Source: Candidatus Nanopelagicales bacterium (lineage in GTDB: Bacteria; Actinomycetota; Actinomycetes; S36-B12; UBA5976). Taken from it: a stretch of DNA of 41,005 nucleotides. The translations under genes were made by a program, and so were the position numbers. The stretch is taken from NCBI GenBank assembly GCA_016463095.1, contig JAEMSA010000011.1, positions 1 to 41,005 on the forward strand. The letters are read 5' to 3'. How positions within the stretch are numbered: the first letter of the stretch is position 1; each line of letters opens with the position of its first letter. Below, piece by piece: positions 35,240 through 40,589 of this stretch. The notes under the pieces are model-generated. The model worked only from the letters and a program-made list of their open reading frames with translations, did not search any database and was not told where the DNA came from.

Positions 35240-36076
35240 CTAGTTCTTTTGAATCTGACTAAAGCCGAGTTCAACTGGTGTTTCTCGTCCGAAGATTTCG
35301 ACCAGACCAGTTACTTTCTGTGAATCAATGTTGATTTCAGAAACTGTTGCTTGCAATGTGGCAAATGGTCCATCAACAACTGTGACAGAATCTCCCACTG
35401 CAAAATCAAGTACTTGAACTTCGCGCACAGTTGTGGTTTGCCCAGTTGTGGCAGAAACAATTCGTTTCTCAATTCTTGGAGCAAGAATTGCCACTACTTC
35501 TTCTAGTTTTAATGGTGAAGGAGTGTGAGCATGACCAACGAAACCTGTTACTCCTGGAGTGTGTCTTACCACTCCCCATGAATCATCAGTTAATTCCATA
35601 CGAACTAAAACATAACCGGGAAATTTATTTCTTTTAATTTGTTTTCTGGTTCCTGCTTTAATTTCTGTAATTTCTTCAATTGGAACTTCAACTTGGAAAA
35701 TGTAATCTTCCATATTTAAGGAAATAATGCGGTTTTCTAAGTTTGTTTTAACTCTGTTTTCTAAACCTGCATAAGAATGGATCACAAACCAATCACCGGC
35801 TTGTAATCTCAAAGAAGATGCAAATGCAACTACTGGATCAACTTCTTCGGCTGGTGTTTCCTCAACTTCTTCAATAACTTCTGTAGTTACTACTTCTTCA
35901 ACTGTCACTTCTTCGACTGGTTGTTCAAAGTTTGGTGAATCGTTAACAATTGGATCAAGAACTTCTGGGGTCTCAACGGTGGAAGCAGAAAACATGTCAG
36001 CTACGGCAACAGATGCATTATCTGGTGCAATTGCAGGTTTAATATCTTCAACGTGCGAGAACGGAGATTCAGTCAC
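35240..36076 (-). CDS. nusG: Transcription termination/antitermination protein NusG with acidic N-terminal extension
   Basis: [56 protein letters not shown] domain [24 protein letters not shown]. Confidence 0.96.
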
Positions 36077-36588: not shown

Positions 36589-37782
36589 ATGAGCAAAGAA
36601 ATCTCCGAGCGAGTCCAGGCCATTGCCGAATCGGCAACTCTGGCAGTTGACGCAAAAGCCAAAGCCTTAAAGGCAGCTGGTCGTCCTGTTATTGGTTTTG
36701 GTGCTGGTGAACCAGATTTTCCCACACCTGTTCACATCGTGGAAGCTGCGCAAAAAGCAGCAACTGAAGTTACTAATCATCGTTATTCACCAACTCCAGG
36801 TTTAGCACCACTTAGAGAAGCAATTGCAAAAGCTGCCACCAGAGATGATGGTTACGAAATAACTGCTGATCAAGTTGTTGTCACAAACGGTGGCAAGCAA
36901 GCAATCTTTAACACCATGGCAACACTTATTAATCCTGGTGATGAAGTTTTATTACAAGCACCATATTGGGTTACATACCCTGAAGCCGTGCAAATATTTG
37001 GTGGCAAACCTGTAGTGATTAATTCAGATGAAACCACTAATTACAAAATAAGTGTTGCGCAATTAGAAAAAGCTTGCACCAGTAAAACCAAACTACTGAT
37101 TTTTTCATCACCCTCAAACCCAACCGGAACTGTTTACACCCCGGAAGAAGTAAAGGCAATTGGACAATGGGCCGTCTCAAAAAATATTTGGGTTATGACC
37201 GATGAAATCTACTTGCATCTAATTTATTCAGGGTCAAAATTTTCTTCAATGCCTGGACTTGTTCCTGAATTGAGAGAAAAATGCGTAATAATCAATGGAG
37301 TAGCAAAAACTTATGCCATGACAGGTTGGCGAGTGGGTTGGACTATTGGACCAAAAGAATTCACTAAAGCATCAATAAATTTACAGTCTCACATGACCAG
37401 CAACGTAAACAACATTGCTCAACAAGCAACAATTGCTGCTTTAAATGGTTCCCAAGAAGTATTAAAACCAATGTTAGATGCGTTTGCTAAACGTCGTGAC
37501 ACCATTGTAAAAATGTTAAACGAAATCAAAGGTGTGGTTTGCCCTGAACCAGGTGGAGCTTTCTATGTCTACCCTTCTGTTAAAGGTTTGATAGGAAAAA
37601 CAGTTAATGGAAAAACAATTAATTCATCCCTAGATTTGGCAAACATTGCTTTAGAGGAAGTAGATGTTGCCTTAGTTCCAGGTGAAGCATTTGGGACACC
37701 TGGATATGTGCGAATGAGTTATGCCTTAAGCGACAAAGATCTCGTCGAGGGTATTACTAGATTACAAAAATTATTTGCTTAA
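36589..37782 (+). CDS. aspC: PLP-dependent aminotransferase, aspartate aminotransferase type
   Basis: [51 protein letters not shown] (PLP lysine); ORF opens at 36550, start chosen by family similarity. Confidence 0.92.
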
Positions 37783-38792
37783 ATATTTAAAATTCTTGGC
37801 TCAATAGTTAATGCTATTCCAAATTTTTGCAAGACTCCTGATGTAATTAAATTCGCCAGCTCAATCACATCTTCTGCTGTGGCATTTCCTGAATTAGCAA
37901 TTGCCAAGGTGTGCTTACTTGAGATCATGGCACCACCATGTCTAAATCCTTTTTCAAATCCAGCTTGTTCGATTAACCAGGCAGCGCTGGTTTTTACTTT
38001 CCCCGATTGGTTTTCATACCTTGGAGCATTAGTTGGAACTTTATCTTTTTCCATAATTGGATTAATAAAAAATGAGCCAACACTGAAAGTGTCATGATCA
38101 TTTGCATTAAGAATCATGCCTTTGGAATTTCTAATTTCAAGAATAGTTTTACGTAAATCTTTAATTGATACAGCTTGTCCTGGATTGATACCTAATGATT
38201 CTGCCACTTGTGGGTAGTTAGTTATTTTTGAATTCTTATCTCTTTTTAATCTAAAAGTAACATTTTCGATAATAAATCTTGACGTTAAGTTTTTAAGAAT
38301 AGAGAATCTGTAACTAAATTTAAGATCTTCATTTGTCAAAATTCTTGATTTACCAGTTGTTCCATCCACTAGCTGGACAGATTTAATAGAAGAATTAACT
38401 TCTGTTCCATAAGCACCTATGTTTTGAATCGGAGAAGCTCCCACTGTTCCTGGAATACCTGAAAGAGTTTCCACACCACTTAAACCTTGATCAACTGCAT
38501 CTGCCACAAAGTCATCCCACAACATTCCAGCGCCAGCATTTATTTCAACAAAGTCTCCATCAGTTTTTGCCGCAGAGTTAACCAATTGCATAAATGCAAT
38601 TGGTGTTTTAATTTCATGATCTGGGGCAACAATATTGCTTCCCCCACCAAGTACAAAGAAGTCTTGATTTCCATATTCGTGTACAAAATCTTGAATATCT
38701 GATGGACTCTGAATTTCACAAACAGTTGTTGCTAATCCACCAACTCGAAGTGTGGTGTGATCTGAAAGTTTGAATCCTTTGAGTTGTCTCAT
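37779..38792 (-). CDS. murB: UDP-N-acetylenolpyruvoylglucosamine reductase
   Basis: [59 protein letters not shown]. Confidence 0.95.
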
Positions 38793-38814: not shown

Positions 38815-39741
38815 CTATCGTCTTGGACTCAATATTTGAGTTTTGCCTCGATAGTTTTGCAAGATACGGTCGTAGGTTTTCTTGGACTCTTTTTCTCTAT
38901 ATTCAATATCAGAATCGTGGTAGCCGTGATGTCTTTTTTGTTCTACCGGCAAAGTATTTCCTAGGGCTACTAATTTATGCCCTTTACTTCTTAATTCTAG
39001 AGACCATTCAAGATCTGCATTTCGATAAAATTTAGCTTTGGAGTTTGCCGGTATTTCTTGGGCTATTTTTGTTTTAATTGCGAATAAATAACCTAACAAA
39101 ATATCTACTTCGCCTTCTCCTTTGTCTTCAACGCTTCGCCATTCATCATCTATTTTGACCAATGACCCTTTCCATCCTGCGGCAACAAACTCATCATCTA
39201 TTTGGTTTATAAGCGGAGTAATTGCATCACCACTAATGATTGAACTTAAATCCATCACCACACTAAATTCAGCTGGGTTTAATTCGATTAATTTATTTAT
39301 TGAATTTGCCCATCCGGCTTGTTCTAAAGTCTGGGAGGTGTGAAGAGCGACTAAATTTTGATTTGTTTTTTCTGTTTCAGCTAAATAGTTTCCAACTAAT
39401 TCTTTATTCCCTAAATCAAGGGCTAGAATTGAAGCATCTTTGGGCATAAATTTAAGCAATGCATTTATGCACTCTTTAGTATCTTCTAGCCAACCATCAA
39501 TTACTAAGCAGACTGTAACTTTCTGATTTAAACGATTAGGTTTGAGTTTTAAACTTGCTAAATTCTCAAAAACTTCAAATGGTGGTTTGATAACTAATTC
39601 ATATCCTCCAGGGTTATCTTTAATCACATAGCCTAAATCTGAAATTTTATCGCGTAACTGATCAGATAACGCAAAATCTTTATTCGCACGAGCTTGAATT
39701 CTTTGCTCAGCTAAGTCAATAACTTCTTTAGGGGCGGTCAT
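38815..39741 (-). CDS. Two-domain protein: N-terminal CysRS C-terminal-like helical segment plus GT2-like glycosyltransferase-fold domain
   Basis: IDLAEQRIQARANKDFALSDQLRDKISDLGYVIKDNPGGYEL matches the CysRS C-terminal motif; the remainder has a GT2-like layout (GYLFAIKTKIAQEI, NADLEWSLELRSKGHKLVALG, HHGYHD). Confidence 0.7.
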   Translation of the reverse strand: MTAPKEVIDLAEQRIQARANKDFALSDQLRDKISDLGYVIKDNPGGYELVIKPPFEVFENLASLKLKPNRLNQKVTVCLVIDGWLEDTKECINALLKFMPKDASILALDLGNKELVGNYLAETEKTNQNLVALHTSQTLEQAGWANSINKLIELNPAEFSVVMDLSSIISGDAITPLINQIDDEFVAAGWKGSLVKIDDEWRSVEDKGEGEVDILLGYLFAIKTKIAQEIPANSKAKFYRNADLEWSLELRSKGHKLVALGNTLPVEQKRHHGYHDSDIEYREKESKKTYDRILQNYRGKTQILSPRR

Positions 39742-39744
39742 AGT

Positions 39745-40173
39745 TTAAGAAAGTTGAACTATTATTAAGGATCTACCTAAAACTTTTGTGCCATTGCAAC
39801 GAGCTTCCACTGCAATCTTTACTAAATTATCTGCCATTTTTTCTTCAATTTTTGCCCCAAATTCTACGTCTGTTCCTTTACCGTCATTTGGCACAACTAC
39901 TGGAGCAGAGAATTTAACTGAAAAACTTTTCACAGCAGTTATATCTTTTACCCAGTTGGTAACCACTCGACTTGCTACACCCATGGTTAGCATTCCGTGG
40001 GCAATAATGTCAGGCAATCCCACAGATTTTGCAAACGATTCATCCAAATGAATTTTGTTGTGATCTCCTGATGCATTTGCATATTTCACTAAATCTTGGC
40101 GTTGATAGTTATGAACAATCTTAGGTAATTCAAATCCAACTTCAACGTCACTGTATTTAATTACCACGGACAT
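39745..40173 (-). CDS. MaoC-family (R)-hydratase/dehydratase, HadB-like
   Basis: LVKYANASGDHNKIHLDESFAKSVGLPDIIAHGMLTMGVASRVVTNW hydratase 2 motif. Confidence 0.9.
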   Translation of the reverse strand: MSVVIKYSDVEVGFELPKIVHNYQRQDLVKYANASGDHNKIHLDESFAKSVGLPDIIAHGMLTMGVASRVVTNWVKDITAVKSFSVKFSAPVVVPNDGKGTDVEFGAKIEEKMADNLVKIAVEARCNGTKVLGRSLIIVQLS

Positions 40174-40589
40174 TAGTTGTCCGTTCCGCGAGCAATAAGT
40201 GTTGCCTTTAAGGTTGCTACTTCGTTTCCTGCTGCATCCTTAACATCACTTCTAATAGTGATGAAATCATTGCCAACTTTTGATTTGATGTCTTCAATAG
40301 TGGAGATGAAAGATAATTCATCTCCTGCTTTGACCGGTTTCTTATATTCAAAACTTTGTTCACCATGAACGACTTTGCTGTAATCAAGGCCAAGTTCAGG
40401 ATCAAATAGGGCAGCTTCCATAGCTCCCATTTGAATGGAAATTAAGAAAGTTGGTGAGGCATAACCTTGTTTGACATAATCATTGTTATCACCAATGGCG
40501 TCACTGAATGCATTGATTTTTTCTTGATCAACTTTAAAAGTTTCTAAAGAAGGATAGGACCTGTTTAGAAACGCTAAGTTAAGTGCCAC
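40173..40589 (-). CDS. MaoC-like / FAS1-like dehydratase N-terminal domain protein, HadA-like
   Basis: FSDAIGDNNDYV...ASPTFLISI...VVHGEQSFEYKKPVKAGDELSF; paired with the HadB-like gene. Confidence 0.88.
   Translation of the reverse strand: MALNLAFLNRSYPSLETFKVDQEKINAFSDAIGDNNDYVKQGYASPTFLISIQMGAMEAALFDPELGLDYSKVVHGEQSFEYKKPVKAGDELSFISTIEDIKSKVGNDFITIRSDVKDAAGNEVATLKATLIARGTDN

Follow-up and report, generated by a model that had tools for sequence, protein, structure and literature searches.

A conserved actinobacterial protein joins a CysRS-type anticodon-binding module to a GT2-like domain with an altered DxD motif

In the complex of Escherichia coli cysteinyl-tRNA synthetase (CysRS) with tRNACys (PDB 1u0b), the anticodon-binding domain comprises CysRS residues 403–461, and Arg423, Arg427, Trp432 and Asp436 contact G34 of the tRNA (PMC12684709, citing Hauenstein et al., 2004). 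Synthetase-type anticodon-binding domains also occur outside synthetases, as in human DALRD3, which contains an anticodon-binding domain and, by guiding METTL2 to tRNA-Arg, directs tRNAs to modification in the anticodon loop (PMC7237682). Here, we describe a protein from a Candidatus Nanopelagicales bacterium (Actinomycetota) in which a module that shares the α-α-β-β fold, the sequence and the G34-contacting residues of the CysRS anticodon-binding domain (PF23493, 1u0b) is instead placed N-terminal to a transferase, without the synthetase catalytic domain. The arrangement differs from DALRD3 in the type of domain (DALR in the human protein), in that DALRD3 is a separate subunit, and in that DALRD3 serves methylation rather than a putative glycosylation (PMC7237682).

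The gene lies in a window of 41,005 nucleotides (contig JAEMSA010000011.1, positions 1–41,005). A preliminary description of this window, made from the sequence alone, had placed it between hadB-like and murB genes, and we confirmed the coordinates of the open reading frame (ORF) and both neighbours (Table 1). With 3 nt between the hadB-like MaoC gene and the ATG, and 22 nt between the stop codon and the murB gene, the three genes look like an operon. The order on the minus strand is tRNA-Thr, tRNA-Met, an rpmG-like ORF of 54 aa, the hadA-like gene, the hadB-like gene, the fusion gene and the murB-like gene; an aminotransferase gene is convergent to this strand, and tRNA-Trp, nusG and rplK-like genes lie beyond it. 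The names murB, rpmG, nusG, rplK and aminotransferase are presumptive, read from the sequence and, for MurB, also from general knowledge. The window's NusG-like ORF (35240–36076) bears an acidic N-terminal extension, and the NusG of family f54 (L081, 3378–4646, minus strand) carries about 250 aa ahead of its NusG domain.

Table 1. Features of the fusion gene and its immediate neighbours; positions refer to the window.
Feature	Position	Strand	Remarks
Fusion CDS	38815..39741	-	308 aa; CysS_C module and GT2-like (GT-A fold) domain; ATG at 39741, stop at 38815
CysRS-type anticodon-binding module, residues 1-52	39586..39741	-	helices 5-19 and 23-35, strands 38-43 and 46-51
Residues 14-42, containing R14, R18, F23, D27, D42	39616..39702	-	aligned to E. 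coli CysRS R423, R427, W432, D436, D451
GT-A/GT2-like domain, residues 75-308	38818..39519	-	profile and structure matches
DxD site, residues 164-172 DLSSIISGD	39226..39252	-	reads D-x-S(-x5-D), family-conserved
Residues 239-247 YRNADLEWS	39001..39027	-	corresponds, as judged by eye, to the ED base motif of GT2; Y239, R240, D243 invariant (44/44)
HadB-like MaoC dehydratase	39745..40173	-	immediately upstream of the fusion gene
HadA-like dehydratase (FAS1_DH_region)	40173..40589	-	upstream of the HadB-like gene
MurB-like gene	37779..38792	-	immediately downstream of the fusion gene; seed for the neighbourhood scan

The first ~50 residues had been read as the C-terminal motif of CysRS, and both profile and structure searches bear this reading out. 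As a single sequence, the window protein scored 21.4 bits against Pfam CysS_C (PF23493; E = 2.7e-4), just missing the gathering score of 23; the window copy passed the CysS_C cut-off in the genome search, and 33 of 44 homologues matched the model (best E = 1.1e-11). The CysRS structure 3tqo was matched significantly by the window protein alone (E = 2.8e-4) and by the family profile (6e-9, positions 6–49). Residues 1–52 folded alone gave a pLDDT of 87.8, and the top PDB match of this model in Foldseek was 1u0b (TMq 0.78, rmsd 1.5 Å, 38% identity, probability 1.00), with an E value of 3.4e-3 that is modest, the piece being short. A class I catalytic domain (tRNA-synt_1e) was not found in the fusion protein but occurs in both genuine CysRS that this genome encodes. 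Fused copies invariably have an aromatic residue, in most cases Trp, at position 38, which is mixed in CysRS. The UVR hairpin of UvrB, UvrC and ClpC is likewise a helical hairpin with an aromatic and R-D signature; unlike the module, it has neither equivalents of R14, R18 and D27 nor the two strands. Residues, fold and profile counts together rule out that the module is a UVR hairpin: only one of 44 members matched PF02151 (E = 0.0021), a UvrB hairpin appeared only at rank 13 in Foldseek (TMq 0.59), UvrB-type hairpins cover the helices only, and the hairpins of UvrC-like and Clp-like proteins encoded in the same genome are devoid of R14, R18 and D27 counterparts.

In the alignment, the window protein has R14, R18, F23 and D27 at the positions of CysRS R423, R427, W432 and D436. 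Of the rows with the module, R14 is kept in 36/36, R18 in 36/37 and D27 in 37/37, residue 23 is aromatic in 37/37, and D42, the counterpart of CysRS D451, is found in 36/37. Within the same phylum, 61 fused copies and some 60 C-termini of CysRS had nearly the same conservation profiles; the CysRS set includes one row (L059) that is a frame-broken fused copy. Retention of the G34-contacting residues in fused copies strengthened the idea that the module could bind tRNA. This pattern supports, short of proof, the view that the module may have retained an RNA-binding surface, by which it could bind tRNA; the conserved charged residues could instead serve folding.

A search for the same two-domain architecture across actinobacteria, as the preliminary description had proposed, found it in dozens of genomes falling into two deep clades. 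Of 148 genomes sampled in the window's order, 50 carry the protein, including nearly all listed f6 genera that were sampled and several f1 genera, but not the g5 and g8 genomes. Genomes sampled elsewhere in the window's class, outside its order, yielded only weak matches of CysRS size. Other classes of the phylum also carry the protein; in the class of G108 it occurs in 22 of 27 genomes and in all eight of good quality, and the class of G086 comprises three genomes only, so its search was uninformative. A tree of the GT domain only, rooted at its midpoint, follows host families (11 changes, against a minimum of 10); both of its main clades are mostly fused, and presence of the module changes five times. 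The fusion is inherited vertically in two deep clades, and its origin before their split, followed by about five losses of the module, is the simplest reading of this tree, though no proof. Since the GT motifs stay intact in copies that have lost the module, the latter is an accessory to the function of the GT domain. D109, an Asp expected to bind uridine, is missing from 5 of 9 module-less rows versus 3 of 59 fused rows. Its absence is frequent among module-less copies (L012, L015, L055, L058 and L063), an observation that is suggestive only. An apparent tendency of D109 to be lost together with the module, spotted post hoc, gave a Fisher p of 6e-4 and was not significant when kinship was counted (median p 0.25).

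In every scanned member of the window's order, hadB lies directly upstream of the gene, with hadA next to it wherever the flank reaches; hadAB also adjoin the gene in families f27 and f54 and lie near it in f24, and are the sole neighbours common to both clades. A downstream murB is confined to the window's order; an ECF sigma gene lies downstream in f24 and f27, and a convergent ftsH in f22, f57 and f61, in which the scan found neither hadAB nor murB next to the gene. In these last three families (L075, L078, L079 and others), a gene for a cyclic-nucleotide-binding domain is also near, a different conserved context. A copy with 96% identity and the same hadA-hadB-gene-murB order was seen in L061 (CAMATO010000023.1, titled Bifidobacterium breve), a probable misassigned MAG. 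The link to envelope synthesis raised in the preliminary description draws on gene neighbourhood only: adjacency to hadAB is deeply conserved, adjacency to murB limited to one order. Adjacency to hadAB could hint at a link to lipid metabolism or at mere inherited synteny.

These surroundings fit an explanation that we consider a strong contender, if short of an even chance, namely that the protein is an envelope- or lipid-linked GT2 enzyme whose CysRS-derived hairpin does not bind tRNA and now serves as a structural element or in contacts with other proteins. Envelope substrates are common for GT2 domains, the nearest folds in the PDB include TarP and GlfT2, the module is dispensable, and UVR-type hairpins take part in protein-protein contacts. 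The hadA-hadB-gene order, found in the window's order where flanks reach and in f24, f27 and f54, with murB following in the window's order, agrees with this explanation, and it counts against docking on tRNA that the most conserved neighbours are hadA and hadB rather than RNA-modification genes, as does the loss of the module, about five times, from proteins with intact GT motifs. However, the G34-contact residues are kept at CysRS levels over deep divergence, which a mere spacer or contact module would not need, and the families f22, f57 and f61 lack any adjoining hadAB or murB. We favour docking on tRNA, to which we give about the same weight as to a structural role of the module.

The remaining ~250 residues had been assigned a GT2-type fold, an assignment upheld by profiles and structure. 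Glycos_transf_2 (PF00535) was found in 39 of the 44 members (best E = 1.5e-17), though the window copy alone did not reach it. The AlphaFold model (pLDDT 95.6, pTM 0.90) found TarP, SpsA, GalNAc transferases and GlfT2 as best PDB matches in Foldseek, and the top 50 were mostly GT2/GT27-type enzymes. The domain shares with GT2/GT-A enzymes (PF00535; SpsA, TarP, DPM synthase, GalNAc-T) the fold, the order of motifs and an invariant Asp where the base is presumed to lie; it differs from them in having D-x-S for DxD and AD for ED, and its identity to solved structures is 10–16%. By member count, the closest curated GT2 model was that of the mycofactocin glycosyltransferase MftF (TIGR03965; 25/44, best E = 8.2e-18), yet that model is without a CysS_C module, and membership was ruled out, as two members scanned scored 42.1 and 33 bits over a partial profile only, versus an equivalog cut-off of 280. 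A characterised GT2 family with such an N-terminus was not found in the searched libraries. With the CysRS match significant as well, neither of the two outcomes named as refutations in the preliminary description was obtained. No membrane-like segment was detected in the fusion protein.

The preliminary description had further suggested that a degenerate DxD motif altered or abolished the metal chemistry. The altered motif is real, but it is a fixed trait of the family: D164 is present in 43/44 rows, Ser occupies position 166 in 39/44 (rarely His), and the second Asp of DxD in 0/44. Other GT residues are likewise conserved (D172 in 42/44, D213 in 43/44, H271 in 43/43, besides D87 and residues Y239, R240 and D243, all invariant), and D243, assigned by eye as the putative base, would fall into the xED region of GT2 enzymes. 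Among close relatives, dN/dS was 0.01–0.17 for the module and 0.05–0.11 for the GT part, indicating purifying selection on both. These low ratios in both halves, together with the retained GT motifs, argue against a dead gene, and the family-wide D-x-S and purifying selection rule out a degenerate copy.

We also consider it improbable that the protein is a pseudo-glycosyltransferase that has lost GT catalysis and acts as an adaptor for tRNA or protein. The family-wide replacement of the second DxD Asp by Ser, rarely His, and the missing D109 (5/9 module-less and 3/59 fused rows) would agree with such a role, but a dead pocket would not need the retained D164, D172, D213, D243 and H271, nor would it be expected under the strong purifying selection seen on the GT part. 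From the sequences, loss of catalysis in the GT domain looks unlikely.

The genome encodes two full-length cysS genes elsewhere, G000:C64 (L086, 1477–2862, minus strand) and G000:C24 (L085, 1480–2895, minus strand), answering a check that the preliminary description had put forward; both products score above the TIGR00435 cut-off and are of different types. The fusion as the genome's sole CysRS is thereby ruled out. In this small, streamlined genome, one of the two CysRS genes lies beside an rRNA methyltransferase-like gene, the other beside a VanW-domain gene. The host genome also encodes a full TGT and, given that the module contacts residue 34 in CysRS itself and that animals attach sugars to Q34 (PMC12518689), the protein might be a queuosine glycosyltransferase that decorates Q34 like the animal mannosyl- and galactosyl-queuosine enzymes. 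We regard this as very improbable, because searches of three genomes that carry the fusion (G012, 94% complete, G008 and G015) revealed no TGT, an argument tempered by their being drafts of 77–94% completeness, many g5 genomes have TGT but no fusion, and tRNACys has the anticodon GCA, not GUN. That the ORF is a chimera due to misassembly or a wrong start codon can be dismissed even though the window's genome is fragmented into 87 contigs, as dozens of separately assembled genomes contain fused homologues, 25–97% identical, with the same junction.

Based on these results, we tentatively suggest, while rating it below an even chance, that the fusion is a soluble, probably catalytic GT2-like (GT-A) transferase whose CysRS-type module docks on a G34-containing tRNA. 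The N-terminal module would place the enzyme on the anticodon loop of such a tRNA, with tRNACys (GCA) as the first candidate, and the docked GT domain would either modify that RNA or have an activity gated by tRNA. As the altered DxD suggests, binding of the sugar donor would involve a shifted metal site or no metal at all. It is somewhat doubtful, as a more specific proposal, that an actinobacterial family of tRNA-docked glycosyltransferases glycosylates tRNACys or another G34 tRNA, or that the state of the tRNA gates its activity on an envelope or lipid substrate.

We found no description of a CysS_C-GT2 architecture or of a hadAB-linked gene of this kind in the open-licence literature, and the combination of CysS_C and GT2 was absent from the searched domain libraries. 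Both domains are known and their combination is apparently undescribed; such proteins may already have UniProt entries with generic names. Should the module bind tRNA, the family would represent a bacterial glycosyltransferase that tRNA directs or regulates, tying sugar transfer to translation or cysteine status, and a synthetase anticodon domain would have been reused in a conserved enzyme family. Even without tRNA binding, the family stands as a conserved enzyme of two domains that seems not to have been described; it belongs to abundant freshwater-type actinobacteria, has its GT2 metal motif altered throughout and is present in most members of another class.
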